Below, piece by piece: positions 8,823-62,133 of a stretch of 64,000 bases of DNA. The stretch's first letter is position 1. Each line of letters begins with the position of its first letter. The stretch spans positions 33,146-97,145 of the IMG/VR virus record IMGVR_UViG_3300035701_000011; one strand, written 5' to 3'. Below the pieces are notes generated by a model, which was given only the letters and a program-made list of their open reading frames with translations, was not told the origin of the DNA and searched no databases. Made by a program: the position numbers and the translations under genes. The DNA is from a virus.

Positions 8823-10435
8823 TAGCCAAAATTAAAGAAAACGATTTAAAAGCATTTCAGGTCTTATCTCATCCGATAAGTGCGTCTCAAATTCTTTTCC
8901 ATGATTTTGATTCATTAGGAACGTGGGATAAAGAAAAATTTGGACATATTCGTGTTTATCAGTATCCTATGATGTCATTTGATAGTTTATTTTTATATGA
9001 TAAGAAATTATCTAAAGAAAAGAATTGGGAAATTAAAAATAATTTAGCTGAAAATTATAATCTTGGGGGGAGACTTACTGGAAAATCAGCAATTTCTATT
9101 CTTATAGATTCTATAGTTGGCACTTTTAATAAAGTTTATACTTGGACTGTAATTAGTTCCTATGATAAGTTACATCTACAAGAAATCTTTGAAAAAATGA
9201 TTAATTGTTTTGAAAATCATAAAATAATGAGAATTTTAAATGTACATCCGTTAAGAAGTCCTACTTTTAAATTAAATTTTGCAAACGGATGTTTATTAGA
9301 AAGTGTAAATATGAATATTGCCAGCAAAAATCCAGGTGGTCAATTCTTTGGTAAACATTTTGGAAGACACTATATGGAAGAATCTTCGTATTTAACTAAA
9401 GAAGTTTCTGGAAAAATGCTTATGGCACAATCAGAACAAGGTTGTATAAATCGTTTTTCTGGTATGACTACATTTACAAAAACATCTCCAGTAGGCGAAA
9501 TATTTTTTGATTTAAAAAACAAAAAAAAGATTATTAATCTTCCTTCCTATATTAATCCTACTTGGAATGATAAAAAAGAAGCAGATGCTATAAAAGAATT
9601 TGGTGGTAAGGATTCTCCTGGTTATCAAGTACAGATTGATGGTAAGGTTATTGAAGGTGCCGAAAGTGTTTTTGATATTCAAAGAATTAGGCAAACTTAT
9701 TTAGTAGATAAAAAAGGCAATCCTATTTCTATTAAAGCATTTGAAGTAAATAAAGATAGTTTTTTTAGATATAAAGAAATTGTTATTGTTGAGAAACCTG
9801 TTAATGCTGAATTTTTAGGAATCTATGCAGACATTGGCGAGGGTGGGGCAGCATCTGAATATATTATTATTTCAAAAACAAATCAAATTTATAGATATAT
9901 ATATCGTATCACTACATTTCAATTATCACCCGAAGAAGAAAAAGAATTTCTCGGATATTTAATTAGTCTTTTACTACCTAATATTATAGGGTTGGATAAT
10001 ACTTCTGGAGTAGGCAAGGCATTGATAAGTGCATTAAGAAAAGATTATCCTGATAATGTTATTCCCGTTTCGTTTAATGAAAACATTCAAATTGGATTAG
10101 CCAGAGATAAAGATGGAAAATTTATTACAGATAAATCAGGGCAGATTGTATATGAAGAAGCCAATATGGTAGATTGGAGTATGCAGAGATTAAAAGATAT
10201 TTTCTATAGTAAAAAAATACAGATGTTGGAAGATATAAAATTCGATACAGAAATTAATAATGTTATTGTTGGAAGAACAAAACAAGGTAAGGTCATGTAT
10301 GGTTATAAAGTGGCTAACCATTTATTTCAAGCCTTTCAAGTATTTGCAATTTGTGATTGGTTAAAAGAGGGTTTACCTAATTTAAAACCCATTAAAAAAC
10401 GTCGCCCTGGGTTTGGGAGTTTCGGAAATGCATAA
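8819..10435 (+). CDS. terL: Terminase large subunit
   Basis: DNA-packaging motor of 538 residues. ATPase domain: Walker A-like GGRLTGKSA near residue 82, and the Walker B/catalytic pair in HYMEESS near residue 183. Nuclease domain: GIYADIGEGG near residue 335 and GLDNTSGVG near 391 supply acidic metal ligands in a RNase H-like fold. ATG 8819 is preferred to the TTG at 8756, which lies inside the previous gene. Unusually, it is in the rightward replication unit, about 50 kb from the portal and on the opposite strand. An HNH gene follows directly, starting inside its last codons. Confidence 0.88.
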   Translation: MIAKIKENDLKAFQVLSHPISASQILFHDFDSLGTWDKEKFGHIRVYQYPMMSFDSLFLYDKKLSKEKNWEIKNNLAENYNLGGRLTGKSAISILIDSIVGTFNKVYTWTVISSYDKLHLQEIFEKMINCFENHKIMRILNVHPLRSPTFKLNFANGCLLESVNMNIASKNPGGQFFGKHFGRHYMEESSYLTKEVSGKMLMAQSEQGCINRFSGMTTFTKTSPVGEIFFDLKNKKKIINLPSYINPTWNDKKEADAIKEFGGKDSPGYQVQIDGKVIEGAESVFDIQRIRQTYLVDKKGNPISIKAFEVNKDSFFRYKEIVIVEKPVNAEFLGIYADIGEGGAASEYIIISKTNQIYRYIYRITTFQLSPEEEKEFLGYLISLLLPNIIGLDNTSGVGKALISALRKDYPDNVIPVSFNENIQIGLARDKDGKFITDKSGQIVYEEANMVDWSMQRLKDIFYSKKIQMLEDIKFDTEINNVIVGRTKQGKVMYGYKVANHLFQAFQVFAICDWLKEGLPNLKPIKKRRPGFGSFGNA

Positions 10436-11075
10436 ATTAAAAGTATGTTCAAAATGTAAAAAAGAATTGAATATTAATAATTTTACAATAGATAATAGAG
10501 CTAAAGATAAATTATTAGGTTATTGTAAACAATGTGTTAAAGATTATCAAATTTTACATAAAAAAGAAAGAAAGATATATTTGGAAAATAATAAACAAAA
10601 ATTTATTTGTTACAGGAAAAAATATTATCAAATAAATAAAGAAAAAGCAAAACAATATTATCAGGAACATAAAATAGAAGTTATTCAAAAACATAAAAAT
10701 TATTATGAAAAAAACAAAGAAAAAATTTTATATCGTATTAAAATTTATCAAAATAAAAAAATAAAAATAGATATTAATTTCCGATTAGCTGCTTATCTAA
10801 GAACAAGAATTTGGCATGCTCTTAAAGGCAATCCTAAATTATCTACAACTATGAAATTGGTAGGATGTAATATTAAACAATTAAAACATCATCTTGAAAA
10901 ACAATTTATTAAAGGAATGACGTGGAAAAATTATGGTAAGTGGGAAATAGACCACATAAGACCTTGTGCTTCTTTTGACCTTAGCAAACCAAGTGAACAG
11001 AAGAAATGTTTTTATTATAAGAATCTTCAGCCTTTATGGAAAGAAATAAATAGACGTAAACAAGGAAAAATATAA
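10428..11075 (+). CDS. HNH homing-type endonuclease (family A, copy 1)
   Basis: 215 residues. An N-terminal zinc finger (CSKCKKELN...CKQC) is followed by Lys-rich tandem units of YYxxHKxxx type, then the shared C-terminal nuclease block: GMTWKNYGKWEIDHIRPC, SFDLSKPSEQKKC and YKNLQPLW. The DH pair and downstream N are the HNH catalytic core. It starts within the terminase stop region and ends in TAATG overlapping the DNA polymerase start, so it is a free-standing mobile gene slotted neatly between two core genes. Confidence 0.8.
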   Translation: MHKLKVCSKCKKELNINNFTIDNRAKDKLLGYCKQCVKDYQILHKKERKIYLENNKQKFICYRKKYYQINKEKAKQYYQEHKIEVIQKHKNYYEKNKEKILYRIKIYQNKKIKIDINFRLAAYLRTRIWHALKGNPKLSTTMKLVGCNIKQLKHHLEKQFIKGMTWKNYGKWEIDHIRPCASFDLSKPSEQKKCFYYKNLQPLWKEINRRKQGKI

Positions 11076-18122: not shown

Positions 18123-18192
18123 ATTATTCGGAGAACAACCACAACGAACTTGTTCTTACGATGGTCATCCCCATTACGATAATTGGAGATAA
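18055..18192 (+). CDS. 45-residue basic protein, GTG start
   Basis: TAAAGGAGAT lies 5 bases before GTG 18055. The product is a Lys-rich stretch followed by RTCSYDGHPHYDNWR, with Cys and two His. It overlaps the previous gene by 68 bases in another frame and ends TAATG on the SbcD-like start. The strong ribosome site is the main support. Confidence 0.4.
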   Translation: MEKKKKNLQKRKSKNLDVTKIFKLFGEQPQRTCSYDGHPHYDNWR

Positions 18193-19226
18193 TGATAATG
18201 AATAATGTTTTAATCTATTCTGATTTGCATATCAATCAATCCTCCCTAAAAGAATGTATAACAATCCTTGAAGAAATAGGTATGCTTACTAATAAGTATA
18301 ATATTGATACACTTATTAATTTAGGTGATACATTCGATGGTCTAAAACCAAGTAGTCAAGAGTTAGATGTTTTTGCAACTTTTATTAAAAGATTAGGAAA
18401 TGATAAAAAACATATTATCCTGGCTGCGGACAGCCATGAAAGTACCACGCAAGAAGAATCAATTTTAAATCATTATGGAATTCTTTCTGATAATGTGCAA
18501 ATTGTCAAAGAATATAAAGATGGTAATCATCTTTATTGTGGACATTTTAGTATTAAGGAATCTATTGTAAATTATGGAGCCAAACTTTCTAAAGAAGATT
18601 TAAAAAATTATATATATGTTTTTCTTGGACACATTCACAGTTATCAAGTTATAAAGCCTAACATTTGTCATTTAGGAAGTTGTAGATATGTTGATTTTGA
18701 TGAGGCAAAAGATGAGTATAAAGTCATAACCATTATTAGCGATTATAAAACAGAACAGGAAGAAGTTCATTTTATGAAGTTAAAAAGTCCTATCCCAATG
18801 ATTCAATTAGAGTTAGGTAAAAATAACCCAAAAGAGGCGATTTTAGACACGATTTCGGACCAAAACAAAGGTATAGAGAAAGATACTCTGGAACCTAAAT
18901 CGAGGCAAATTGCCTGTATAAACCCCCTAAATTCCTATAGTTTTGAGGCAGTATGTCAATTTTTAGATAAAGCAGACCACAAGACTAAAGTTAAGGTTAA
19001 AATCCTCGATTTTGAATCTTTCCGCCAATTCCTTCCCTTATGTAGTAAATACAATACAAAATTTGAGACATTTAAGTATGAAACTGATTTTACAATCATT
19101 TCGGTAGATAATCAAAATTGTAAAGATACTGCAATAGTTAGTTTTAAAGAAGCATTTATTAATTGGCTCAATAATCAGAAAATAGATGATAAGATTAGAG
19201 AAATCCTACAAAAAGAGATAGAATAA
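18192..19226 (+). CDS. SbcD/Mre11-like nuclease (gp47-type)
   Basis: 344 residues of the calcineurin-like phosphoesterase fold: YSDLHIN (motif I), NLGDTFDG (motif II), ADSHES (motif III), CGHF and LGHIHSY (motifs IV/V). Motif III normally reads GNHD/E; here Asn is Ser, so the transition-state residue is changed. Start is ATG 18192 or 18198, both after GGAG. It should pair with the SbcC-like ATPase encoded 180 bases downstream to trim DNA ends and feed recombination. Identity is strong; the effect of the altered motif is unknown. Confidence 0.75.
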   Translation: MIMNNVLIYSDLHINQSSLKECITILEEIGMLTNKYNIDTLINLGDTFDGLKPSSQELDVFATFIKRLGNDKKHIILAADSHESTTQEESILNHYGILSDNVQIVKEYKDGNHLYCGHFSIKESIVNYGAKLSKEDLKNYIYVFLGHIHSYQVIKPNICHLGSCRYVDFDEAKDEYKVITIISDYKTEQEEVHFMKLKSPIPMIQLELGKNNPKEAILDTISDQNKGIEKDTLEPKSRQIACINPLNSYSFEAVCQFLDKADHKTKVKVKILDFESFRQFLPLCSKYNTKFETFKYETDFTIISVDNQNCKDTAIVSFKEAFINWLNNQKIDDKIREILQKEIE

Positions 19227-19408
19227 TGATAGAACACAGAGTTTGGTGGGAAGAAATAGAAAGATGTAAAGGAAAAAATAAAAATGGTTCTCCTTGTCAT
19301 TTACCAACTCGTAGGGGATTTGAAATTAGTCCTGGAAATTTATTTGTTCCTTTAACTTGTTGGAGACATCAAGAACAAGAAAATAAATTAAGGCAAATCA
19401 AAACATGA
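19226..19408 (+). CDS. 60-residue Cys/His zinc-finger protein
   Basis: Pattern CKGKNKNGSPC...CWRH: C-x6-GxxC then C-x2-H, a recurring small phage/bacterial zinc-finger type with unknown function. Start overlaps the SbcD stop and its end overlaps the SbcC start (ATGA), so it is embedded within the SbcCD operon. Confidence 0.55.
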   Translation: MIEHRVWWEEIERCKGKNKNGSPCHLPTRRGFEISPGNLFVPLTCWRHQEQENKLRQIKT

Positions 19409-20184
19409 TAATTAAATCCTTAAAGATTAATAATCTACAACTTATCAAATCAGCTCAGGTTAATTTTGATAAGATTAATATTATTTCTGGAATAAATAAA
19501 GATAATCCTTCCGAAAGTGGTAATGGGTCTGGTAAGTCTACTTTTGTTTTGCGTGCCATTTTATTTTGTCTCTACGGGTATTGCGAGGAAGGTCTAACCC
19601 TCAAAGATTTAATTCGCTTTGAAGAAAAAGAATGTTCAGTTACTTGTGAAATAACCAATAACAATGAACATTACAGAATAATAAGAAAAATACCTAGTGA
19701 ATTACAACTTTTCCTTAATGATAAGGAAATTCAAGCAAATACCGCAACTATTAAACAAAATTTAATAAACGAATATTTTGGTGATGTTAGTTTTTTCAGA
19801 CAATATAGATGTGTTGATTTAAAGAATGGAATAAATGTTTTAGATATGGGTATTGTATCTCTTCGCAAGACATTAATGAGTTTTATAGAAGGTATCTTTA
19901 CTGAAATAAGAACTCGATTATTGGCACAAAAAGTAGAAAGAGAAAGGTATTCAATTGATAAAAAATTATTCAAAAATTTCCTCTCAGAGAAGCGATTAAA
20001 TATCTTAAATGCTTCATTAATTGAAGCAAAAACTGATTATCAACGATTTGAAAAAGAAAGAGATATACAACAAAATATTATTAATAAAATCAAATCAGAA
20101 ATACAATCAAGAGAACAAATTATCTATTATAAAAAATCAGAATTAGAAAAATTAAAAAAAGGACAATGTCCTATAATAAAATGA
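19405..20184 (+). CDS. SbcC/Rad50 homologue, N-terminal half (split gene)
   Basis: 259 residues. Rad50-type ATPase N-lobe: KSLKINNLQLIKSA strand, Walker A NGSGKST near residue 36, Q-loop region FFRQYRC near 130, then an ascending coiled coil. It ends at the apex with GQCPIIK and a stop. The normal protein would continue to a zinc hook and descending coil. The missing half is the separate gene at 20852-21544, with an HNH endonuclease gene between. Both halves keep good coding quality, so assembly in trans is likely. ATG overlaps the previous TGA. Confidence 0.8.
   Translation: MIIKSLKINNLQLIKSAQVNFDKINIISGINKDNPSESGNGSGKSTFVLRAILFCLYGYCEEGLTLKDLIRFEEKECSVTCEITNNNEHYRIIRKIPSELQLFLNDKEIQANTATIKQNLINEYFGDVSFFRQYRCVDLKNGINVLDMGIVSLRKTLMSFIEGIFTEIRTRLLAQKVERERYSIDKKLFKNFLSEKRLNILNASLIEAKTDYQRFEKERDIQQNIINKIKSEIQSREQIIYYKKSELEKLKKGQCPIIK
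20165..20174 (+). repeat. Direct repeat flanking HNH insertion, left copy
   Basis: AATGTCCTAT occurs here at the end of the SbcC N-half and again at 20856-20865 at the beginning of the C-half. Both encode the Cys-Pro-Ile of the hook. It marks the insertion point of the HNH gene. Confidence 0.6.
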
Positions 20185-20852
20185 ACAAATGTATAATTTG
20201 TAAAGAAAAATTTCAACCAAATAGTAATAATCAAAAATGTTGTTCAATTGACTGTTATAAAATTCATAAGAACAACTATCAAATAATTTATCGCAGTAAC
20301 AGGAACCAAGAAAAGAAAATGATTTGTTTGATTTGTAAAAATGAATTTATTAAGATTGGTAATCAAATATGTTGCAGTAAAAAATGTTCTACTATTAATA
20401 AAAAAGAGAAACATATAATTTATCGATTAAATCATAAAAAAGTAAAAGAAATTTATGATAATAATTATCGGCAAATTCATAGAATAGCAATAAATGAATC
20501 ACATAAAAAACGTTTTGAATCTGATATTAATTTTAGAATAATGTGTAATTTAAGAAGTAGATTACTTTCAGCAATTAGGGGTAATCCAAAATTAGAAACT
20601 ACTACAAAATTAGTTGGATGTAGTATAGATAAATTTAAGAAACATCTTGAAAAACAGTTCAAAATAGGGATGAATTGGAATAATTGGGGTAGGGGTTGGA
20701 GTGGAATGGGCATGAAAGAATGGCATATAGACCATATTATTCCTTGTTGTCAATTTGATTTAACGAAAAAATTGGAACAAAAGAAGTGTTTTCATTATAC
20801 TAATCTTCAACCTCTGTGGGCAATAGAAAACATGCAAAAAAGGAAAAAATAA
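20181..20852 (+). CDS. HNH homing-type endonuclease (family A, copy 3) splitting SbcC
   Basis: 223 residues from ATG 20181 (an ATG at 20166 is an alternative). Two zinc fingers at the N-terminus (CIICKEKF...CCSIDC; CLICKNEF...CCSKKC), a basic middle, then the shared core: EWHIDHIIPCC, QFDLTKKLEQKKC, YTNLQPLW. A glycine/tryptophan insertion (NNWGRGWSGMGM) precedes the core, unique among the copies. It overlaps both SbcC halves (ATGA and TAATG), leaving no room for a self-splicing intron. Confidence 0.8.
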   Translation: MNKCIICKEKFQPNSNNQKCCSIDCYKIHKNNYQIIYRSNRNQEKKMICLICKNEFIKIGNQICCSKKCSTINKKEKHIIYRLNHKKVKEIYDNNYRQIHRIAINESHKKRFESDINFRIMCNLRSRLLSAIRGNPKLETTTKLVGCSIDKFKKHLEKQFKIGMNWNNWGRGWSGMGMKEWHIDHIIPCCQFDLTKKLEQKKCFHYTNLQPLWAIENMQKRKK

Positions 20853-21544
20853 TGGAATGTCCTATTCTAAAAGAAAAATATAACCTAATATATAAAGAAA
20901 AAGAGCAAGAAATTTTAAAATTAAATGAAGAGATTAACGATTATAAGAAACAATTAGAATTAGAACAAGATTCTATTTCTTATTATAATGATATGTTGGA
21001 ATCAATTCGCAATAAAGAAGAAAAAGTACGACAAAAATTAACACAATTAAAGTCTGCATTTCAATTTGCTGATTATAAATATACTAAAGCCGACATCGTA
21101 ATCTATGATGAAGCGGTAAAAATTTTAGATACATTTGCTGGTGAATATATAAAGGAATGGTTATCTTCTCTTTCAGTAATTATAAATAACCTTCTTCAAC
21201 CTATAAATATTTCAGTAGAGTTTACTGCGGATAAAGATTTTTTACATGTTTATGATAATGAACAAATGTTAAAGTATGACCAATTATCGAAAGGTCAGAA
21301 GACATTTTTGGGGTGTTTATTTAAATTTGCTATCTTAATGCAGCAAAATAAATCGGGGATAGTGATTTTAGACGATGGACTCAATGATATTGATTGGATT
21401 AATTTTAAAAATTTAATAAATATAATTAAAACTCTTCCCTTTCAAGCAATCTGTGTGTATCAGGGATTGCAAGAAAAAATAGAAGATACAAAACATTTTT
21501 TAGTTATAAGAGAAAAAGGAATTTCAAATGTTAAAACTGAATAA
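20852..21544 (+). CDS. SbcC/Rad50 homologue, C-terminal half (split gene)
   Basis: 230 residues. Begins MECPILKEKY, which repeats the hook sequence ending the N-half, then a descending coiled coil, and the ATPase C-lobe: signature QLSKGQKTFLG near residue 143, Walker B GIVILDDGL near residue 170, and a QGLQEK end region near the usual H-loop. AAGGA is 8 bases before ATG. Together with 19405-20184 it rebuilds a complete but short gp46-like ATPase. Confidence 0.8.
   Translation: MECPILKEKYNLIYKEKEQEILKLNEEINDYKKQLELEQDSISYYNDMLESIRNKEEKVRQKLTQLKSAFQFADYKYTKADIVIYDEAVKILDTFAGEYIKEWLSSLSVIINNLLQPINISVEFTADKDFLHVYDNEQMLKYDQLSKGQKTFLGCLFKFAILMQQNKSGIVILDDGLNDIDWINFKNLINIIKTLPFQAICVYQGLQEKIEDTKHFLVIREKGISNVKTE
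20856..20865 (+). repeat. Direct repeat flanking HNH insertion, right copy
   Basis: Second copy of AATGTCCTAT, 691 bases from the first; see the left copy at 20165-20174. Confidence 0.6.
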
Positions 21545-21803
21545 GAAAAAACATTTTAATTGTAAAAATTGTATCTGCCAAGAAAAGGTAAAATTTCAGA
21601 ACAATGTATTATTTTGTTTTGGATTAATTAAAAAAACTTATTATAAAGAAGACCACTATCGTTTTTGTATAATTAAAGGAAAAAAACGTTCAGCAAATGA
21701 TATAATGTTAGAAGAACTTCATAGTATGTTAATGGGATTGTCAAGGATTCTTTTTCAAAAAAGATTAGAAGAAGTAAATAAAGATAGGAGATTAAAAAAA
21801 TGA
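21528..21803 (+). CDS. Cys-rich hypothetical protein
   Basis: 91 residues: FNCKNCICQEK, then CFGL and FCII, possible metal site, followed by a helical basic C-terminus. ATG inside the SbcC C-half end; its stop overlaps the M16 start (ATGA). Function unknown. Confidence 0.5.
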   Translation: MLKLNKKKHFNCKNCICQEKVKFQNNVLFCFGLIKKTYYKEDHYRFCIIKGKKRSANDIMLEELHSMLMGLSRILFQKRLEEVNKDRRLKK

Positions 21804-22954
21804 ATACTATTCAAATTAATAAGCCAGGGAATTCTACTATGGTATTAGTTATGGCTCCTACAGGAGCCTATTACGAAGATGATAAATATAAAGGTATATC
21901 TCATTTTTTAGAACATATGTGTTTTAAGGGAACTAAAAAAAGAACCAGAGAAGAAATAAATTCTACAATAGAAAATGTAGGTGGTGATATTAATGCTTTT
22001 ACTGATTGGGAAGTTACTGCTTATTGGGCAAGAGTTGGAAATGCCTACAAAAAAATAGCATTTGATATTATTGAAGATTTAGTTACTAATCCTATTATTC
22101 CTGATAAAGAAGTAGATAAAGAAAGAGAAGTAATTATACAAGAATTAAAAATGGGCGTGGATGATGCCAAAGGATATACTTGGGATTTATTTCATTCTGC
22201 TCTTTATGAAAAAAAATCTGGATTTCATATATCAATTATAGGAACCAAAGAATCTCTTTATAGAATTAAACAAGAGGATTTGGAAAAATATCACAATCAA
22301 TATTATAAATCAAATAATTTAACTAAAATAATCGTGGGTGATGTTCCCAATATTGAAAAATTTCAAATGAAATCCTACAATATAAAAGAAAATTTTGTGA
22401 ATAAAAATCCTAAAGATAAATTAGTTACTCGCAAAGATATGACTCAAGCAAATATTATTATAGGAAATAGTACAAAACCTTTTGTATCTACTCAAGAAGG
22501 AGAAATTTTAAATTGGTTATTATCTTCTCTCTATAATGATATGAGTGGTAGATTGTTTTCTGTTATTAGAGAACAAAATCATTTAGTTTATAGAATAAGA
22601 TTTGGAATTGATTATAATAGAAATAGAGAAATGACTTGGAGTGTTTCTCTGGGATTAGATAAGAAGAATATTGAAAAAGCAAGAAAATTAATTGTTCAAG
22701 AATTAATCAGACCTGCTACAAAAAAAGAAATTGAAACTATCATAAATAAAACTATAGGTACTTTAGATTTATATTTGGATGATAATATTCATATAGCAAA
22801 TCAAATCGCTTATTTTGTTACTCGTAATATTGATTATAAATTCTTTATTTATGACTACAAAAAATATATAAAGCAAACTGCAAATTTAATTAATGATTAT
22901 ATTCAAGATTTACATTTTGAAAAAAATGTATTAGCTGGAGTAGTAGGAGAATAG
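21800..22954 (+). CDS. M16-family zinc peptidase
   Basis: 384 residues. The inverted zinc motif HxxEH appears as HFLEHMCFKGT near residue 36, with the distal Glu in EREVIIQEL near residue 113 and NAFTDWEVTAYW between. The second, substrate-contact half includes RLFSVIREQNHLVYRI. These mark the full M16B fold (processing peptidase, PqqL and RiPP-maturing peptidases). All zinc ligands are present. Such a peptidase is rare in phages. It starts a run of protein-processing genes (deformylase, M50, ClpP). Substrate unknown. Confidence 0.85.
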   Translation: MNTIQINKPGNSTMVLVMAPTGAYYEDDKYKGISHFLEHMCFKGTKKRTREEINSTIENVGGDINAFTDWEVTAYWARVGNAYKKIAFDIIEDLVTNPIIPDKEVDKEREVIIQELKMGVDDAKGYTWDLFHSALYEKKSGFHISIIGTKESLYRIKQEDLEKYHNQYYKSNNLTKIIVGDVPNIEKFQMKSYNIKENFVNKNPKDKLVTRKDMTQANIIIGNSTKPFVSTQEGEILNWLLSSLYNDMSGRLFSVIREQNHLVYRIRFGIDYNRNREMTWSVSLGLDKKNIEKARKLIVQELIRPATKKEIETIINKTIGTLDLYLDDNIHIANQIAYFVTRNIDYKFFIYDYKKYIKQTANLINDYIQDLHFEKNVLAGVVGE

Positions 22955-23514: not shown

Positions 23515-24102
23515 ATGCCATATAAAAATAAAAAAGTTAGAACTAAATACCATAAAATATATTATTCGAAGCATAAAGATAAAATTTTAAGAATTGCAAA
23601 AAAATACATAAAATTACATAAAATAAAAGTTTCTATTTATCAAAAAAATTATCGCAAGAAGCATAAAGAAAAAATTAAACAATATAATGAACAACATAAG
23701 AAAAAAATTAATTTACAGATGAGAAAATGGAGAAAAGAAAATAGAAAAAAGATAACTCATTATATCAGGCAACGTAGAAATAATAATTTAGATATTAAAT
23801 TAAAAGATTATTTAAGAAATAGATTATATCAAACTTTAAAAGGACTTTATAAATCTAAATCAATTTTAAAATTACTCGGTTGCTCTATTAATTTTTTAAA
23901 AAATCATTTAGAAAAATTATTTGCTAAAGGTATGAATTGGCAAAACTATGGTAAGTGGCATATAGACCACATCAAGCCTTGTGCTTCATTTGACTTGAGC
24001 AAACCCGAAGAGCAACGTAAGTGCTTTCATTATAAAAATCTTCAGCCCTTATGGGCGAAAGAAAATTATATTAAACACGATAACATTATAAAAGAGGAAT
24101 AG
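23515..24102 (+). CDS. HNH homing-type endonuclease (family A, copy 4)
   Basis: 195 residues: a very Lys-rich array of YxxxHKxKI units, then NYGKWHIDHIKPC, SFDLSKPEEQRKC and YKNLQPLW. No zinc finger at the N-terminus. It separates the M16/membrane genes from the deformylase gene, whose ATG follows its stop directly. Confidence 0.78.
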   Translation: MPYKNKKVRTKYHKIYYSKHKDKILRIAKKYIKLHKIKVSIYQKNYRKKHKEKIKQYNEQHKKKINLQMRKWRKENRKKITHYIRQRRNNNLDIKLKDYLRNRLYQTLKGLYKSKSILKLLGCSINFLKNHLEKLFAKGMNWQNYGKWHIDHIKPCASFDLSKPEEQRKCFHYKNLQPLWAKENYIKHDNIIKEE

Positions 24103-32682: not shown

Positions 32683-35130
32683 ATGGAAACAAATCCTAAT
32701 TCAAAAAAATGGTTAAAAATAATAGACCAATATGGTTGGGCATATTATTTTACTACCAAAGAGCAACAACGTTATTCTTATCATCAATTAGATTTAATGT
32801 CTTTTTTTGAATTCGAAGATATTCTAAATCAAATCCCAAAAATTGATTATGAAGTAATATATTATTCTGACCCTGCTATTTGGTATGATAAAGAAAAAAA
32901 GCAAATAGAAAATTTACGTAAAAATTTTCCAAAAATTAAAATTATAGGAGCAATTTCTGGAAATACTACAAATTATAAATATGATAATGTAGATTTAATT
33001 GTTCCTATCTCCTATAAAGATATAAATAATTTAAAATTAATTTATCCTAACATTCCTATAATTTTCTTACCTGAAAGTGTAGATACTAATTATTTTATCC
33101 CAAAAAATCAATATAATAATTTTATAGTAGGCTGGGCTGGTAGATTGTCTGCCCCAGATAAACGATGCCATCTATTAGATAAATTAAAATATACTGTGGA
33201 AAAACAAGCCGAACATAATGATAAAGACTTAATTAATGGTCGGTCTCTAGAACCTATGTTAAAATTTTATCACAAATTAGAATGTTTAATTTTATTGAGT
33301 AAACATGAATGTATGCCTAGAGTCGTTATGGAAGCAATGAGTTGTGGATTGCCTGTAATAGCAACAGATTGTGGGTCTATTAGATTATTATTAGATAAAG
33401 AATGGATTATTTCTAATAATCTAACTGATGAAGAAATTATAAAACAATGTAATAAAAAATTAGATATGCTAGCAAATAATTCTGTACTTCGGAAAAAAGT
33501 AGGAAAAAGAAATAGATTACATATAGAAAAATATTTTAGTTGGAAAATTAATCAACCTATGTGGGATAGAGTAATTAATTCCCTATATAATAATGATATG
33601 AAAGATATTCAAAAAGTTCATCAATATTATATGAATTTATTTCAGCCTATGTGGGAAAAAGATAAATTAGACATTTTAAAAATTATTGATGAATATGGAT
33701 GGGCATATCATTTTGTCAATCAAGAACAAATAAGATATACTAAACATAATCTTAGTTATCAAACTATTGAAGAAAGTAGTACTCTTACTACCGTACCTGA
33801 TTATGATATTATTTATTTCCACAGTTCAAATATGTATAGTTCTTGGGAAGATAAATTGATTATTAAATTACAAAAAGAAAATCCTTATACAAAAATTATA
33901 GGGGCTTATGGTGGAGAAACAGAACAAATATATCAAGACTGTGATATTGTTGTTTCTATTTCGTTAAAATATATGGAATTTTTGAAAAAAGAATATCCAA
34001 ATAAACCTGTTATCTTTCTCCCCGAATCGGTAGATACTAATTATTTCAAACCAAATAATATTTTAAATCGGTGTATTTTTGGTTGGGCTGGTAGATTATC
34101 TTCAGTCAAAAGACATCATTTATTAGATAAATTAAAATATCCTATTATAAAAAAATCCGATTGGGATAAGAAATTTTTTGTAAAAGAAAGAACTCTAGAA
34201 CCAATGAAAGATTTTTATAAAAGTATAGATGTATTTGTCCTAACTAGTCAATCCGAATGTATGCCCAGAGTAGTTTTAGAGGCTATGGCTTGTGGATTAC
34301 CTATAATATCTACCGATGTAGGGTCATTGAAACTCATAATAGAAGATGAGTGGTTAATTTTTAATACAGAGGATGAAAAAAATGTAATTGCAGAAATAAA
34401 TAAACGAATGGAAATATTAAATAAATATCCCGAAATTAGAAAACGAGTTGGAGAAAGAAATCGGAAATTTATAGAAGAACATTTCAGTTGGAAGATAACC
34501 CAACCATTATGGGATTCTGTTTTTAAATTAATTTATAATGGAGATTATAAAGGATGTGTAAATATAACAAATAAATTTTTATTAGATTTAGACGATTCTG
34601 TAACTTCTCATTTAGGCAGAGAAGCAATTGATATTCCAATAACTTCCAATCATATTAAAATTAAACTAGAAAAAATTAATTCTATACCTGTAGCAAAACC
34701 AATTATTCCTTTAAAGATTATTAAAGAAGAAAAGCAAGAAACCTTATTAGAAAAAATGTTTAAACCAAAACCTAAAATAGAAAATATAACTAAAGAAGAA
34801 CGATATAGAACCTTTTTTAAAGAACTTAATTCTAATGATATAAAATATTGGTTAATAAAAAATAGTTGTTTAGAACGGATTGTTTTAAGAGAATTAAAAA
34901 CTGAACTTCTCAATTTAGGTACCTGTGATATTAATAATCAAAATAAAATTAATTTAATTGCCGAACAATTTAAAATTCCTGTAGAAATAACTATAGAAAA
35001 CAGGAAAATTAAAGAATTTTCTATTTATGGAGAAACTATTTTTGTTCCGATACCTGTTGTAGAATATTTATATCGTATTTTTGGAAAAGATAATTTAATT
35101 AAAAAATATGGAGAAGAATGGATAAAATGA
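32683..35130 (+). CDS. Tandem GT4 glycosyltransferase with LicD-like tail
   Basis: 815 residues. Two homologous GT-B domains: the first has VGWAGRLSAPDKRCHLL and HECMPRVVMEAMSCGLPV, the second FGWAGRLSSVKRHHLL and SECMPRVVLEAMACGLPI. Both retain the nucleotide-sugar Glu motif, and each has the same start (KIIDQYGWAY; KIIDEYGWAY), so it is an internal duplication. Residues about 690-815 look like a degenerate LicD unit (DIKYWLIKNSCLE; FGKDNLIKKYGEEW). It could polymerise an alternating disaccharide. Low similarity at the catalytic Asp means activity of both halves should be tested. Confidence 0.78.
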   Translation: METNPNSKKWLKIIDQYGWAYYFTTKEQQRYSYHQLDLMSFFEFEDILNQIPKIDYEVIYYSDPAIWYDKEKKQIENLRKNFPKIKIIGAISGNTTNYKYDNVDLIVPISYKDINNLKLIYPNIPIIFLPESVDTNYFIPKNQYNNFIVGWAGRLSAPDKRCHLLDKLKYTVEKQAEHNDKDLINGRSLEPMLKFYHKLECLILLSKHECMPRVVMEAMSCGLPVIATDCGSIRLLLDKEWIISNNLTDEEIIKQCNKKLDMLANNSVLRKKVGKRNRLHIEKYFSWKINQPMWDRVINSLYNNDMKDIQKVHQYYMNLFQPMWEKDKLDILKIIDEYGWAYHFVNQEQIRYTKHNLSYQTIEESSTLTTVPDYDIIYFHSSNMYSSWEDKLIIKLQKENPYTKIIGAYGGETEQIYQDCDIVVSISLKYMEFLKKEYPNKPVIFLPESVDTNYFKPNNILNRCIFGWAGRLSSVKRHHLLDKLKYPIIKKSDWDKKFFVKERTLEPMKDFYKSIDVFVLTSQSECMPRVVLEAMACGLPIISTDVGSLKLIIEDEWLIFNTEDEKNVIAEINKRMEILNKYPEIRKRVGERNRKFIEEHFSWKITQPLWDSVFKLIYNGDYKGCVNITNKFLLDLDDSVTSHLGREAIDIPITSNHIKIKLEKINSIPVAKPIIPLKIIKEEKQETLLEKMFKPKPKIENITKEERYRTFFKELNSNDIKYWLIKNSCLERIVLRELKTELLNLGTCDINNQNKINLIAEQFKIPVEITIENRKIKEFSIYGETIFVPIPVVEYLYRIFGKDNLIKKYGEEWIK

Positions 35131-43569: not shown

Positions 43570-44145
43570 TTATTCTCCTAAAATCTTGTCGTTCTTACTT
43601 AAGTTATCAAACGCCCATAAAGGTTGAAGATTAGTATAGTGAAAACATTTACGTTGCTCTTTAACTTTACTTAAATCAAACGAAACACATGGTCTAATAT
43701 GGTCAATATGCCAAAGACCATAATTATTCCAGGTCATACCTAATTGAAACTTAGATTGTAAATGATTCTTTAATTGTTCTACATTGCACCCTAATAATCT
43801 CATGGTAGATTCTGATTTGGAGATTCCTTTTAATACTTTATAAATTCTAATTCTTAAATTAACAATAATTTTATTTTTTATTTTTCTATAGTATTTTAGA
43901 TTATAAGAAATTCTTTTTTCTCGATTATTATAATAATTTTTTTTAGCCCATTCTCTTGCTTTTTCATAATTATCATAATAATACTTCAAACTATAATCAT
44001 TTACTTCTTTTTTATGAGATTCTCTATATTTTTTCTTATATTGTTTAATTTCTTCAGCATGTTCTTTTCTGTATTCAGAATTTCTTTTATTTAATTCATC
44101 TTTATGTTTTTGATAATATATTTTTCTATATTCTTTTATATCCAT
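43570..44145 (-). CDS. HNH homing-type endonuclease (family A, copy 5)
   Basis: 191 residues. MDIKEYRKIYYQKHKDELNK begins an array of YxxxHKxE units, then NYGLWHIDHIRPC, SFDLSKVKEQRKC and YTNLQPLW. ATG 44145 gives a 1-base gap to the upstream gene. It is on the leftward strand inside the tail cluster, so family A has spread to both transcription units. Confidence 0.78.
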   Translation of the reverse strand: MDIKEYRKIYYQKHKDELNKRNSEYRKEHAEEIKQYKKKYRESHKKEVNDYSLKYYYDNYEKAREWAKKNYYNNREKRISYNLKYYRKIKNKIIVNLRIRIYKVLKGISKSESTMRLLGCNVEQLKNHLQSKFQLGMTWNNYGLWHIDHIRPCVSFDLSKVKEQRKCFHYTNLQPLWAFDNLSKNDKILGE

Positions 44146-44146
44146 T

Positions 44147-44602
44147 TTAATCACCGATAATCCAATTACCTTGTTCATCTATGATAAGTATTATTTTCTG
44201 ATTTTTTCCATCTTTAAGCCATTGTAAACCCAAATGATATTCTATTGTATGAGATTTTTCTTTTAAATCTTGGGTTCCTATTTCTACTTTATGCCTACGG
44301 AAGAATACTAATCTACAATTTTCTTTTTTTTGTTCTGTTTCTATATAAGGAAATTCTAATCTATTATAACCAATAAGTCCGTTTGTTAAGTTTACACTAA
44401 ACATCTTACCATTGTTATTTGTTAAATTAAAATAAACTAAATCATTAAATTTTTCTTGTACTTCTCTGAATTGATGCTCTATACCGTTTTTGTCAAATTG
44501 AAAAATATGAGTACCATCTTTGAAAATTGCGTTCCAATAAAAAGATAGCGAATTCATTGAATTGTTTCCGCCATTAATATTTATGTCCATTGTATTGTCC
44601 AT
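44147..44602 (-). CDS. Hypothetical phage protein
   Basis: 151 residues: SLSFYWNAIFKDGTHIFQFD, EHQFREVQEKFNDLVYF, then beta strands. The type is common among tail-region hypotheticals and is distantly like the gene at 45255. Contains no metal or catalytic motif. Function unknown. Confidence 0.5.
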   Translation of the reverse strand: MDNTMDININGGNNSMNSLSFYWNAIFKDGTHIFQFDKNGIEHQFREVQEKFNDLVYFNLTNNNGKMFSVNLTNGLIGYNRLEFPYIETEQKKENCRLVFFRRHKVEIGTQDLKEKSHTIEYHLGLQWLKDGKNQKIILIIDEQGNWIIGD

Positions 44603-52822: not shown

Positions 52823-53374
52823 TTACTTTATCTTTTGTTTAGGTTTGCTTAAATTATCTTTTGCCCATAAGGGTTGAAGATTTGTATAACGGAAACATTT
52901 CTTCTGTTCACTTGGTTTACTAAGGTCAAAAGAAGCACAGGGTTTTATATGGTCTACATGCCATTTACCATAATTAGACCAAGTCATACCAGATTGAAAC
53001 TTAGATTGTAAATATTCTTTTAATCGTTCCACAGAACAACCGACTAATTTCATAGTAGTAGATGATTTGGGATTATTTTTTAATACCAAATATAATCTAG
53101 TTCTTAAATTGCATAAAATTTTAAAATTTATATTTGTAGACCTTTTAATTCTATAATATTTAGTTATTTTATTAAGTATAGATTTTTTATTTTTTAGATA
53201 GTATTTTTTCTTTTTAGCCAAAATTTGTTCTCTGTGAGTTTCATAATATTTTTTATCAACTTTAACACATTTTACTTTATTTATTTTTACATATTCTTTT
53301 CTTTGCAACAAAAGTTTAATTCTATTTTTTAAATAATAAGCCTTCTGATATTCTTGTTTATTAAATTTTTTCAT
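52823..53374 (-). CDS. HNH homing-type endonuclease (family A, copy 6)
   Basis: 183 residues: Lys-rich YYxxxKxxI array, then GMTWSNYGKWHVDHIKPC, SFDLSKPSEQKKC and YTNLQPLW. Located between the holin-like membrane gene and the tube gene. Its core is nearly identical in wording to copy 1. Confidence 0.78.
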   Translation of the reverse strand: MKKFNKQEYQKAYYLKNRIKLLLQRKEYVKINKVKCVKVDKKYYETHREQILAKKKKYYLKNKKSILNKITKYYRIKRSTNINFKILCNLRTRLYLVLKNNPKSSTTMKLVGCSVERLKEYLQSKFQSGMTWSNYGKWHVDHIKPCASFDLSKPSEQKKCFRYTNLQPLWAKDNLSKPKQKIK

Positions 53375-55803: not shown

Positions 55804-56376
55804 TTATTCTCCTCTTATATATTTAAAATATGCAAACCAATAATCTCTGCTACCATTTGTTTTTGCATGACAATTAGAGCATAATAAAATCAAATTATTT
55901 TCTTTACAGTTCTGTTTATTATAATCTATGTGATGAACACTTTTTCCTTTTTTATTACAAATTATACATTTATTATTAAATTTATTTCTAATTTTAATTC
56001 TTATCTCGAACCATTCTACAGGATATGGTAGATAACATTTTCCATGTATATAACCTGGAGATTTTTTACCATATCTGTGAATATTATACATTGGATTGCT
56101 TTTACCCTTATTATTTAATTTGCCTATCTTATGTAAATGAACATCGCTACAATGAATACATCTTTTTACATCGTGTCTGCTAATTTCTTTTTTACAATCT
56201 ATACAGTAATAAATTTTTAATGTTCTTCCATCAATATAACGTTGATGATTCTTAGGATTTTCAAATTGTTTTTTTGCTGCACAAGATTGACAGCGTTTTG
56301 TTCCATTATATTGAGCATTTTTACCTAATGGTTTGTTACAATCATCACAATATTTTTGTTTATGCCATTTAATCAT
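55804..56376 (-). CDS. HNH endonuclease, family B (copy 1)
   Basis: 190 residues. Four zinc knuckles (CDDCNKPLG...CQSC; CIDCKKEI...CIHC), a GKKSPGYIHG linker, then the HNH core CIICNKKGKSVHHIDYNK with QNCKENNLILLCSNCH. Related along its C-terminus to the gene at 59742 but not to family A. Sits between connector and a hypothetical gene. Confidence 0.78.
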   Translation of the reverse strand: MIKWHKQKYCDDCNKPLGKNAQYNGTKRCQSCAAKKQFENPKNHQRYIDGRTLKIYYCIDCKKEISRHDVKRCIHCSDVHLHKIGKLNNKGKSNPMYNIHRYGKKSPGYIHGKCYLPYPVEWFEIRIKIRNKFNNKCIICNKKGKSVHHIDYNKQNCKENNLILLCSNCHAKTNGSRDYWFAYFKYIRGE

Positions 56377-57973: not shown

Positions 57974-59026
57974 TTATTTTTTATGTTTAGAAGCAATTAT
58001 TGCATTTATATTTTCTGCTTGCTTCTGTGTATCAGTTTTTGTTTTTACTTCAACAGTACCTACTGCCATTTCTTTTTTTACTTCAACTTCAGGAGGTTTT
58101 AACTCCGCAATCTCTTGGTCTTTTTTACCAAGTTCTTGTTTTATTATAGTTATTTCTTTATCTTTTTCGACTAAAATTCTTTCTTGTTCAGCTTTAAGAG
58201 TAGCAATTTCTGCATCCTTTTCGGCTTTTGCAGCATTTACTTTCTCTTCGACTTCTGCAAAATCAAATTTCTTTTTGATTTCTACTTCTGTTTCAACTTC
58301 ATCTTTTGTACCATCTTTATATTCAGTTATTGTTTTGGTATAACCTTTAACTTCCTGAGTACCAGATGGTGTACCATCGATATAAGTATCTATTCTTACT
58401 TCGCTGTAAATACTTGTAGTCTTAACTATTATTTTTGGCTCGATAACTTCTAAAGGTTGAGCTTCCTCTTTTTTCTCTTCTGGTTTCACTTCGGCTTCAG
58501 TTTTTACTTCTAGAGTTACTTCGACTTTCGGTTCTTCAATTTTCGTTTCAGCGACAACAGGAATTTCCTGTGCCTGGGTTTCGATTGGTTTCACTTCAGT
58601 CTTAGGTTCCTCAGAAGATTTTTCCAAAGCATCCTTGTGTCTTTCTAGGTGAGTACTTGCTTTTGCTTGTAAATCTTCAGCAGAAATCGAATCAGAAATT
58701 GGTTTAATCTGATTACATCTTGCTAAAGCATTTTTGTAATGAGGTAAATCTAAATTTGCATTAGATTTCTCTTTACCTAAATCACCTTCACCATTGTGAT
58801 GAGGAAGATGTCTGGCATTTTTATCTTCTGTCTTTTCTGGATAAGCAGGTTCAATTGCAGCAAATGCTGAATCTGGCAAACCATTAATAAATTTTTTGGT
58901 CCATTTTGCAGCATCTTCTGTTAATTTTGCTTTATCCTCATCAGAAGAATAATAAAATGCCATAGCTAATTCAAATGTAATCTCTTCTTCTTTTGTAACA
59001 TTAGCAAATAATTCAACTAACTCCAT
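57974..59026 (-). CDS. Nested scaffold protein (internal start)
   Basis: ATG 59026 is in frame within the protease gene and follows a full AAGGAGG (59035-59041, on the minus strand) at eight bases. It gives a 350-residue product MELVELFANV... that contains the whole scaffold region without the protease. This matches the C/Nu3-type arrangement of lambda. The strong site is seen directly; production of a separate protein is inferred. Confidence 0.6.
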   Translation of the reverse strand: MELVELFANVTKEEEITFELAMAFYYSSDEDKAKLTEDAAKWTKKFINGLPDSAFAAIEPAYPEKTEDKNARHLPHHNGEGDLGKEKSNANLDLPHYKNALARCNQIKPISDSISAEDLQAKASTHLERHKDALEKSSEEPKTEVKPIETQAQEIPVVAETKIEEPKVEVTLEVKTEAEVKPEEKKEEAQPLEVIEPKIIVKTTSIYSEVRIDTYIDGTPSGTQEVKGYTKTITEYKDGTKDEVETEVEIKKKFDFAEVEEKVNAAKAEKDAEIATLKAEQERILVEKDKEITIIKQELGKKDQEIAELKPPEVEVKKEMAVGTVEVKTKTDTQKQAENINAIIASKHKK

Positions 59027-59755
59027 TTTGTTTTCCTCCTTATCTTTTATACAATTACATTTTCCACAATTTACGCAGATTGGTTCTTCTATAACCAAAG
59101 CTGCAAAAACTAAGTCTTGATTAAAGACTTCATTTGTTATCTTTTCTGCTTCATCTATTATTTTTTTATTGGCTGTAGCTAGTAATTTTTCTGCATATGC
59201 TTCTTTACATGCTGGAGTTTCGCCTTCAATAAGAATACCCACTCCATGATAAATTATCGGGTCGATTGATTTAATACCATTTCCTAAATCATGTAAAACA
59301 GAATTACCATTTTCATCTTTGTTCCATATCTCAAAGGAGACCGCCATTTTATTTCCTTTTACCATTTCTTTCATTTTTTCAAATTCTTCTGGAAATAAAG
59401 ATTTATATATTGCTATATAAGTAACAATTAAATCTTTTTCTAACTTTGCATCTAAAATCCACCCACATATATAATTCTTTCCTAAATGCGACCAGTTGGC
59501 TTGCTTTCCCACAAGTGTAGGAAGTGCTTTTTTAGCTGCTTCTTTAGGCAATACAATATTATTTCTGTTTGGAACATCTGTTCTTGCGTAAATTGTTTTT
59601 AGTATAGCTATATCTGGGCTGGGAACAACCAAATTCATTTTTTCTGCTATTTTTATAAGTTCAGAATCTTTTGATATTTCAATAAATTCACTTTTTGATT
59701 CTTTTGCTAAATCATAAAGATATTGAGCCAATATTTTCTTGTTACAATTTTTCAT
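57974..59755 (-). CDS. Prohead protease with C-terminal scaffold
   Basis: 593 residues. Residues 1-190 look like the prohead protease fold (VRIDT-like strands, MAVSFEIW near residue 134, IDPIIYHGVGILIEGETP). Residues about 228-234 form a Cys-rich bridge (CVNCGKCNC). The rest is an acidic scaffold: ARHLPHHNGEGDLGKE, then Glu/Lys-rich coiled coil. An internal start at 59026 allows the scaffold to be made alone. The family normally cuts itself and the scaffold during maturation. Confidence 0.7.
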   Translation of the reverse strand: MKNCNKKILAQYLYDLAKESKSEFIEISKDSELIKIAEKMNLVVPSPDIAILKTIYARTDVPNRNNIVLPKEAAKKALPTLVGKQANWSHLGKNYICGWILDAKLEKDLIVTYIAIYKSLFPEEFEKMKEMVKGNKMAVSFEIWNKDENGNSVLHDLGNGIKSIDPIIYHGVGILIEGETPACKEAYAEKLLATANKKIIDEAEKITNEVFNQDLVFAALVIEEPICVNCGKCNCIKDKEENKMELVELFANVTKEEEITFELAMAFYYSSDEDKAKLTEDAAKWTKKFINGLPDSAFAAIEPAYPEKTEDKNARHLPHHNGEGDLGKEKSNANLDLPHYKNALARCNQIKPISDSISAEDLQAKASTHLERHKDALEKSSEEPKTEVKPIETQAQEIPVVAETKIEEPKVEVTLEVKTEAEVKPEEKKEEAQPLEVIEPKIIVKTTSIYSEVRIDTYIDGTPSGTQEVKGYTKTITEYKDGTKDEVETEVEIKKKFDFAEVEEKVNAAKAEKDAEIATLKAEQERILVEKDKEITIIKQELGKKDQEIAELKPPEVEVKKEMAVGTVEVKTKTDTQKQAENINAIIASKHKK

Positions 59756-60488
59756 TTTTATAAACCTCCAATTTTTCTATATAATATTTTTGCCAATAAT
59801 CACGATTATGATTGACTCTTAAATTACATTGTTCACATAATGTTATTAAATTATCTTTAGAACAATTATTTTTATTATAGTCTATATGATGCACAGGTAA
59901 TTCTATTCCTCTGACTATAAGGTGCTCTTCTTCGGTCATACCGCAATTCTGACAAGTATAATCGTCTCTTTTACGAATTAATTCTTTTAAATTATCATTA
60001 AATTCGTTAGGATATGGTGCATTTGCTTGACCATGTATGAAACTGTGGTGATTTTTTCCAAAATTATGTTTTCTATAACATTCATTGCATCTTCCATCTA
60101 CGGTAGTATAAGAACTTAATCTTTTTCCACAATCTTTGCATTTCGGTTTACCACCTTTAAAATTTGGATGGTTATCACCTGTATTAAATTTATTCCAACA
60201 TTTTCTACATCTTTTAGTTCCAACTTTCCAAGAAGAATAACTTATTTCTTTAGTTTTACAATCTATACAATAATATTTTTTAAATGTACTACCGTCTTTA
60301 TAAGCAGGATTATTTTCTTTTTCTTGAATTCCTTGATGCGATTCTGAATTAGAACGAATTTTAATCCCATATTTTTTCATAGTGTATGTTAATTTATGTC
60401 TACTAATTCCCAAAGAATTAGCAATAATTACTAATGTTTTTCTTTTTGTTATATATTCTTTTTGTAGAAATTTTTTAGTTATTTTCAT
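59742..60488 (-). CDS. HNH endonuclease, family B (copy 2)
   Basis: 248 residues. N-terminal helix-turn-helix (LVIIANSLGISRHKLTYTMK), three zinc pairs (CIDCKTKEI, CKDCGKRLSS, CNECYRK), then the HNH core CQNCGMTEEEH...VHHIDYNK, NNCSKDNLITLCEQC. It shares VHHIDYNKxNC with copy 1 at 55804. It lies between the portal and protease genes, overlapping both by 14 bases, a neat insertion between core head genes. Confidence 0.8.
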   Translation of the reverse strand: MKITKKFLQKEYITKRKTLVIIANSLGISRHKLTYTMKKYGIKIRSNSESHQGIQEKENNPAYKDGSTFKKYYCIDCKTKEISYSSWKVGTKRCRKCWNKFNTGDNHPNFKGGKPKCKDCGKRLSSYTTVDGRCNECYRKHNFGKNHHSFIHGQANAPYPNEFNDNLKELIRKRDDYTCQNCGMTEEEHLIVRGIELPVHHIDYNKNNCSKDNLITLCEQCNLRVNHNRDYWQKYYIEKLEVYKNEKL

Positions 60489-62133
60489 TTATTATTTCCG
60501 ATTTAACCCACTTGTCGCCTACTTTTTTATAACCGTGCTTTTTTAACCAACGTTTCATTGCCGACCAAGCTACTGGAAATGCGTAATCTTCTCCTTTGGG
60601 TAATGATTTATTAAAAACTTGTATAAAAACTTCTTGAGCACCTTTAGGATATTTCTTTAAAAATGCTGGAGGATTATCTTTATCATAAGGAGCAATTATT
60701 AAATCATCTGCTAAACTAGCAGTTTTATTTTTTGTTTCAGGTGTATTTTTCTTTTTATTTTGGTCTTCTAATTTAGTTGTGTCTTTAGGTTTTGCTGGAA
60801 TTCCCATTCTATCAGGAATGTCTTCTCTATTCTGAATTAGATGAGGATAGAATAAATCTTCATCACCATTTTCTAATTCTTTTTGTCGTCTTTCTTTTTC
60901 AGTTATTGGGTCTAATCCTAATATTTCTTGATATGTCTGAATACTCATTGAACCTCTATCGAATCCACTTCTTAAATCTGCGAGTAAATTTTCTACATTA
61001 ATCCTAAGTGGACTATTTACAATAATAATATTACCCTTATCACTAAATAGTTTTTTATGAGCATTTTTATTTCTTTCTTCTATTAAATATATTGCTTCTA
61101 ATAAAATTCCTTTAAATCCTTCTACTCCTTCATTAACTTCAGAAATAAATGCTTTGGGATTTAATCTTGATTCTTGTCTTGAAGGACTTATTTCAAGCAT
61201 ATCGATAAAACCGAGACCTGCTAAAATAGAACGATAACCCTGACGATATAAATCTTCTGCTAAAATTTTACTCAAATCAGGAATTAAGTGGTCATATTTT
61301 GTATCAAATGTATCGGCTAAAAATGGTGTTTTTCCTTTTTCACTTTTATATTTTTTAATTTGTTCTTTCCAACTTTCAGCTAATTCTTTTAATTCATCAT
61401 CTCCCCAATCGATTCCTGCTTGAGATAATTCTGGAGAACCTTTTTGAATTAAAAATAAATAAGGTAAAATCTTAGAAATAACTTCATCAGATTTATCTTG
61501 TAATGTTTTCATTCCTAACCAATTTTTATAAACACCTTTTCTAATTAAATAAGGTGTAGCATATTCATCAAACCAACGATTATAAGGTTTTTGCACAATT
61601 ATTTCTTCATTTTCAGTTCCAGGAATTCCTATTTTATTTGCTTCATCTAAATAATATTTATCACTACCTAATTTATAATTTGGGTCTTTTGGTCTTGCTA
61701 CATAAATAGACCCACCATTAACAAACCACATTGTGGTTGGAACTTCTATTGTAACATTATCTACTGAAATTTTTTCCCAACCAGAAACTCTCAAAATACA
61801 AAAAGAAGAACCTTCCCATCTCTCTTTGAAATATTCTTTGGAAAGGGCTTGTAATCCAGTTGGAATTCCTTTAATTTCTATATTTATATCTTCCAACCAA
61901 ATATTTAATAATTTTTGGAGAGTACTTTCAGAACATTCTACTCTATATTTGGCTTCTGATGCAGAATTAACTGCATAATCCAAAATACTATTTATTGTTC
62001 CTGAAATATCAGAATCCAACATCTCTTTAATTTTGGAACATCTATCGTGATAATCGGAAGGAACTGAAATACCTCCACTTTCAAATAAATAATTTAAAAA
62101 TTTTTGAAAATAACCACCCAATGCATCTGCCAT
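60475..62133 (-). CDS. Portal protein with C-terminal ChaB-like domain
   Basis: 552 residues. N-terminal portal body (SILDYAVNSASEAKYRVEC; NRWFDEYATPYLI; FIDMLEISPSRQESRL; SMSIQTYQEILGLDPITEKE) and a linker rich in Lys/Asn, then residues about 480-545: AFLKKYPKGAQEVFIQVFNK, AFPVAWSAMKRWLKKHGYKK, the ChaB type (small, helical). Extra ChaB ends are known on some phage portal proteins. It forms the packaging entrance. CTTTTCCTACTCC-type leader gives AAGGAGTAG before ATG. Confidence 0.82.
   Translation of the reverse strand: MADALGGYFQKFLNYLFESGGISVPSDYHDRCSKIKEMLDSDISGTINSILDYAVNSASEAKYRVECSESTLQKLLNIWLEDINIEIKGIPTGLQALSKEYFKERWEGSSFCILRVSGWEKISVDNVTIEVPTTMWFVNGGSIYVARPKDPNYKLGSDKYYLDEANKIGIPGTENEEIIVQKPYNRWFDEYATPYLIRKGVYKNWLGMKTLQDKSDEVISKILPYLFLIQKGSPELSQAGIDWGDDELKELAESWKEQIKKYKSEKGKTPFLADTFDTKYDHLIPDLSKILAEDLYRQGYRSILAGLGFIDMLEISPSRQESRLNPKAFISEVNEGVEGFKGILLEAIYLIEERNKNAHKKLFSDKGNIIIVNSPLRINVENLLADLRSGFDRGSMSIQTYQEILGLDPITEKERRQKELENGDEDLFYPHLIQNREDIPDRMGIPAKPKDTTKLEDQNKKKNTPETKNKTASLADDLIIAPYDKDNPPAFLKKYPKGAQEVFIQVFNKSLPKGEDYAFPVAWSAMKRWLKKHGYKKVGDKWVKSEIINENN

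Follow-up and report, generated by a model that had tools for sequence, protein, structure and literature searches.

In an uncultured phage, the gene for an SbcC/Rad50-like ATPase is divided into two reading frames at the codons of its zinc hook, and the gene that divides it encodes an HNH endonuclease of the endonuclease VII type. The most probable explanation, to which we assign a probability of about 0.75, is that homing-endonuclease genes have repeatedly inserted in this phage group and that one of them, entering sbcC at the hook codons, left an SbcC made of two polypeptides that is probably functional.

The stretch analyzed, hereafter the window, comprises 64,000 nt (positions 33,146–97,145 of IMG/VR record IMGVR_UViG_3300035701_000011). 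The whole 97-kb record (G000) is a linear fragment and may be incomplete. Four related groups were obtained from viral-contig scans (IMG/VR): G001 (105 kb), G002 (110 kb), G003 (48 kb), and G004 (a 33-kb contig with two near-identical contigs). Additional viral-contig scans returned the same contigs again, and no relatives were found in bacterial or archaeal genomes, nor with SbcD as search bait. The hook-site split itself is known from a single metagenomic assembly.

Organization of the Divided sbcC Locus

The genes follow one another in the order SbcD-like gene, sbcC N-half, HNH gene, sbcC C-half, and M16 peptidase gene (Table 1). An earlier note on this DNA had described an sbcC split by an HNH gene that overlaps both halves, with GQCPIIK closing the N-half, MECPILK opening the C-half, and a 10-base direct repeat on either side of the HNH gene; the three reading frames, both peptide ends, and the repeat were all recovered as described. 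In the sequence ATGA, the stop codon of the N-half overlaps the HNH start, and in TAATG the HNH stop overlaps the start of the C-half. The N-half contains ATPase lobe I, the Q-loop region, and the first coiled-coil arm, and the C-half contains the second arm and the motifs of lobe II. Immediately 5' of the HNH start, a weak hairpin (z −2.0), AGGACAATGTCCT (AGGAC-AAT-GTCCT, 20160–20172), covers a Shine-Dalgarno-like AGGA and is a possible regulatory element. Promoter scans gave background-level signals only.

Table 1. Coordinates of features in the window.
Feature	Position	Strand	Basis
SbcD/Mre11-like nuclease gene, 347 aa, intact in window	18183..19226	+	profile matches
sbcC N-half, 259 aa, ends KKGQCPIIK*	19405..20184	+	ORF; alignment to residues 1–259 of intact relatives
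Walker A GNGSGKST of N-half	19519–19542	+	sequence
Left direct-repeat copy AATGTCCTAT, hook codons (CPI)	20165..20174	+	sequence
HNH gene, endonuclease-VII-type, 223 aa from ATG 20181, splits sbcC	20181..20852	+	homologs and paralogs
AAGGA, putative Shine-Dalgarno-like motif, 7 bases 5' of C-half ATG, within final HNH codons	20840..20844	+	sequence
sbcC C-half, 230 aa, starts MECPILK	20852..21544	+	ORF (ATG chosen at 20852); alignment, hook to C-terminus of intact relatives
Right direct-repeat copy AATGTCCTAT, hook codons (CPI)	20856..20865	+	sequence
ABC signature LSKGQ of C-half	21284–21298	+	sequence
Walker B GIVILDD of C-half	21356–21376	+	sequence
Example HNH genes of the record	10413–11075, 23515–24102, 43570–44178, 52823–53374, 55804–56376, 59742–60488		

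The assignment to the SbcC/Rad50 family rests on several lines of evidence. The Walker A, signature, and Walker B motifs found in the window halves are conserved in relatives, and the expected operon partner is present: the SbcD/Mre11-like product matches Metallophos PF00149 above cut-off, PHROG 100 (SbcD-like, E 1.4e-7), and NCBIfam TIGR00619 (sbcd, E 2e-9, below cut-off). The N-half matches PHROG 21388 (exonuclease, E 8e-17) and the C-half SMC_N (E 3e-6, below cut-off); searched against isolated phages, the C-half gave no match. Undivided relatives reach E 7e-13 with the NCBIfam Rad50 models (below the curated cut-off), 4e-11 with SMC_N, and 3.5e-5 with a solved Rad50 chain (PDB 3qku). The AlphaFold2 models were poor, with mean pLDDT of 52 (intact SbcC homolog; low confidence outside the coil helices) and 69. 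For the intact homolog, helices are predicted at residues 184–251 and 273–328 (block means mostly 71–88 pLDDT), joined by a loop at 252–272. The window break falls in this predicted loop, the place where separate chains would be best tolerated. A fold search with the low-confidence SbcC model pointed to SMC/Rad50 heads, which lends weak support, and a fold search with the HNH model found nothing.

Hook Residues and the Direct Repeat

The earlier note had also proposed that the usual CPxC hook was replaced by a single cysteine in each half. The single cysteines are there, but CPxC is not the motif of this family: the hooks of intact relatives (L002/L008, L005/L010, L013) read CPILKTSC in G001 and CPVLKTKC in G002 and G004, and the family hook is thus CX6C. 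Since the relatives have CX6C rather than a standard CXXC hook and each window half has one Cys-Pro, the window protein is filed, on its sequence, as SbcC/Rad50-like with a variant hook. Alignment with intact relatives identifies the N-half cysteine as the first hook cysteine. That of the C-half looks like a second copy of the same residue, and the second ancestral cysteine has become a tyrosine (CPILKEKY). The stretch 3' of the hook is shorter in the C-half than in intact relatives.

Both copies of AATGTCCTAT code for the hook residues CPI(I/L)K in homologous register, and imperfect similarity extends past the 10 bases. From base composition, about 0.003 matches of 10 bases would be expected by chance between the two flanks of ~30 bases. 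Since CPI is encoded in one and the same register by both copies, a short duplication of target sequence accounts for the repeat more simply than chance does. In addition, the hook codons form a local peak of DNA conservation within the variable coil (0.76 versus 0.45–0.60 in several nearby scanning windows), as would be expected of a homing target.

Intact and Differently Divided Genes in Related Phages

A search of related phages for an intact gene, as the earlier note had suggested, was successful. Three of the four groups (G001, G002, and G004) have an intact sbcC of 488 aa, counted from the aligned Met, and both window pieces align with it end to end, at ~65–77% identity for the N-half and ~56–69% for the C-half. 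These uninterrupted genes represent empty sites for the HNH insertion, and since the hook of all three lies at the point of interruption, the window insertion falls on hook codons.

The fourth group, G003, also has a divided sbcC; here the break follows codon 96 and is caused by an unrelated, zinc-ribbon type of HNH gene, with an ATGA overlap and an overlap of 17 bases. In G002 and G004, a third HNH type divides sbcD instead, separating its nuclease part from its C-terminal domain. The two sbcD splits (L013 3698–5191 and L008 4116–5731) are at the same place and involve related HNH genes. Outside the operon, a zinc-ribbon HNH gene interrupts a transporter-like gene of G001 at about codon 70 (G001:C1:75780–77870, minus strand; L010 12406–13393); the window phage and relatives have this transporter-like gene intact. 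The frames overlap or nearly adjoin at the splits of the window, G003, the G004 sbcD, and the G001 transporter. To judge from these contigs, HNH elements have hit the small sbcCD repair operon repeatedly, since close relatives carry sbcC either intact or broken elsewhere by an unrelated HNH gene. The three HNH types found in the operon have nuclease parts without detectable similarity to one another, which means that they invaded separately.

Co-conversion of flanking sequence is a known outcome of homing (PMC2988022). The ~55 codons 3' of the G003 insert are only 43–50% identical to all other copies, which share 74–87% among themselves, and G003 sbcC returns to 74–82% identity further downstream; this divergent stretch is likely a co-conversion tract. 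The flanks of the window insert are also locally divergent (49–63% to L011/L008/L013, versus 69–79% among those three), but this is weak evidence of co-conversion because the G001 coil, which has no insertion, diverges as well (~23%).

The HNH Protein and Its Family

The window HNH protein has two N-terminal cysteine clusters resembling zinc fingers, a helical middle, and a C-terminal nuclease motif, WHIDHIIP...FHYTNLQPLW. Among 13 HNH homologs, 30 columns are invariant, including D184, H185, and N208 of the DH...N motif. PHROG 1035 (endonuclease VII) is matched by 11 of these 13 family members, and the window member matches only phrog_28061. The family, recognized by WHIDHIxP...NLQPLW, has at least six members in the 97-kb record (at least five paralogs of the window copy) and more in the relatives; the paralogs in the record are ~40–50% identical in protein. 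No direct relatives of the window HNH were found in viral contigs with exact peptide patterns. Distant relatives in isolated phages amount to 115 records.

State of the Two Halves and Alternative Explanations

The earlier note had considered that its interpretation would be refuted by an intact SbcC elsewhere in the genome or by stops or frameshifts in either half in other isolates. The 97-kb record contains no SbcC other than these two pieces, although an intact copy could lie elsewhere in the virus if the record is incomplete, and neither window half has a stop or frameshift. Changes specific to the window comprise 16 synonymous and 7 non-synonymous substitutions in the N-half (omega-like value 0.14) and 18 and 6 in the C-half (0.10); these values integrate over all of the window branch, some of which may be older than the split. 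Whole-gene omega-like values in relatives are 0.06–0.20. Similarly, pairwise pN/pS is 0.26–0.47 for the window halves and 0.27–0.53 for pairs among the relatives. These values show purifying selection on both halves, similar to that on the relatives' copies, and lend support, short of proof, to a function that persists after the split.

Decay, splicing, and an assembly chimera are all less likely explanations than insertion of a homing-endonuclease gene. It is unlikely, in our judgment, that the insertion inactivated sbcC and that the pieces have simply not yet decayed. The loss of one CX6C cysteine and the shortened stretch in the C-half are what a dying gene could display, and phages can depend on host nucleases. 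However, both halves are fully open, none of the three ATPase motifs (Walker A, signature, Walker B) has been lost, their starts appear to be coupled to the HNH gene, the omega-like values on the window branch are low, and further sbcC and sbcD splits are found in relatives, there too with pieces that are open and conserved. An assembler could also have joined an HNH gene into sbcC, given the six related HNH genes in the same genome, the 10-base repeat at the edges of the insert, and the reliance on one assembly. This is scarcely credible when the HNH paralogs are so divergent in protein, when sbcC, sbcD, and the transporter gene are seen divided by other HNH genes in assemblies independent of this one, and when the start/stop overlaps are too tidy for random joining.

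Very improbable, too, is the removal of the HNH segment from the RNA or the protein, by a group I or II intron, IStron-like splicing, or split inteins, which would restore a single-chain SbcC. Introns and inteins often carry HNH genes. Split inteins flanking a homing-endonuclease gene have also been reported (Dassa et al., 2009, as cited in PMC10448857). In the window, however, 672 of the ~690 inserted bases are HNH reading frame, which leaves no space for an intron core, and an Rfam search found no intron at E ≤ 1. Moreover, the halves end and begin at hook residues, with no intein-sized extension, and lie in different frames, each with its own stop and start.

A Proposed Course of Insertion and Reassembly

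According to the homing-endonuclease explanation, the endonuclease-VII-type HNH gene would have inserted into the phage sbcC at the codons for the tip of the coiled coil, the zinc-hook loop, and turned it into two translationally coupled genes. Chain 1 would then supply lobe I and the ascending helix of one SbcC, and chain 2 the descending helix and lobe II. In crystals of P. furiosus Rad50, the N and C parts of the head are separate chains and still form a working head. The halves would most likely re-associate through their ATPase lobes and the antiparallel coiled coil, the break lying in a loop where the chains can meet, and the reassembled SbcC would act with the neighboring SbcD. For its part, the HNH protein would most likely nick or cut uninterrupted sbcC alleles of co-infecting relatives, whose repair would copy the HNH gene in, while the interruption would shield the gene's own sbcC copy from cutting.

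Within this explanation, the divided protein could be a functional split enzyme that has no zinc hook, with tip cysteines left over from the ancestral hook and arms held together through different contacts, a reading that we regard as a serious contender at somewhat under even odds. The replacement of the second CX6C cysteine by tyrosine is in line with it. In addition, a MukB hinge can substitute for the Rad50 hook in fission yeast (PMC6969161), so that the tip can be said to tolerate change. On the other side, each half retains one Cys-Pro at its tip, so that a dimer of the split SbcC would still have four cysteines. One cysteine per half might rebuild a zinc hook. In its full form this proposal is tentative and, to us, rather doubtful: the insertion would have rebuilt the hook as an inter-polypeptide device, with duplicated hook codons, one Cys-Pro tip per half, an original second cysteine that then became dispensable, and a Rad50-type dimer held by four cysteines from four chains. 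More broadly, and just as tentatively, homing endonucleases in this phage group would repeatedly aim at the sbcCD nuclease, recombination machinery that may perform their own homing.

Relation to Known Split Genes

Genes in pieces through homing endonucleases are known. The precedent named in the earlier note holds: in Aeromonas phage Aeh1, nrdA is split by mobE, a free-standing HNH homing-endonuclease gene, and the split enzyme is functional (PMC2988022). There, as here, a phage gene of DNA metabolism has become two coding regions through an HNH homing-endonuclease gene. In the window, however, it is an SbcC/Rad50 ATPase gene that is broken, at the codons for the coiled-coil tip, the HNH protein is of the endonuclease VII type, and the split enzyme is only probably functional; in related phages, moreover, different HNH types have struck the sbcCD operon at more than one site. 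Replication enzymes in pieces and associated with homing endonucleases also include the T4 topoisomerase with mobA and gene 43A/43B of phages 25 and 44RR, and gene 43 of phage 25 is a precedent for a functional split enzyme (PMC2988022). These cases concern other genes and other endonuclease families, and the origin of 43A/43B by insertion is uncertain. The fractured genes with split inteins (Dassa et al., 2009) also have a homing-type endonuclease gene between gene halves, as far as the citing paper describes them, whereas the window has no intein parts and hook residues stand at the inner ends of both halves.

The nearest relatives of the N-half in isolated phages are the SbcC-like recombination exonucleases of staphylococcal Kayvirus/Twort phages (36–38% identity over the first ~126 residues). 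Their genes share the order sbcD – small ORF – sbcC, but the protein is a single 639-aa polypeptide with a normal CPVC hook. As the earlier note had supposed, searches of the open-access literature yielded no description of a split SbcC/gp46, and the splitting of SbcC, at the hook and repeatedly, appears to be new. If the proposed explanation is true, this would be, as far as we found, the first description of a selfish element that causes an SbcC/Rad50 to be produced from two genes. A break at the loop where Rad50 arms dimerize would offer a natural test of whether the arms and the hook need chain continuity. Likewise, three HNH types at two sbcC sites and one sbcD site within one small phage group constitute a natural experiment on the survival of a useful gene under repeated insertion, and the same group bears on whether homing elements favor recombination genes.

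Other Features of the Record and Its Relatives

Some 10 HNH genes that resemble homing-endonuclease genes and belong to three types occur in the 97-kb record; most of them overlap their neighbors by a few bases. Two HNH-flanked gene pairs, 57974–59755 and 60475–62133, were considered as further split genes and rejected, as they are separate genes in relatives. Downstream of sbcC, the window carries a phage-borne gene for an M16 (insulinase-type) zinc peptidase with an HFLEH motif (21800–22954), which relatives lack at this position. In G001 and G002, nuclease genes abut the 3' end of sbcC (L010 7464–8129 and L013 7448–8137); the nuclease domain of the former looks like PD-(D/E)XK/VSR and not HNH. 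The last residues of these nucleases, FIVIREKGVSKVD and YIIREKGESKID, resemble the SbcC tail, a pattern that might arise if an element had inserted close to the 3' end of sbcC, so that the endonuclease kept the original tail and SbcC gained a new one.
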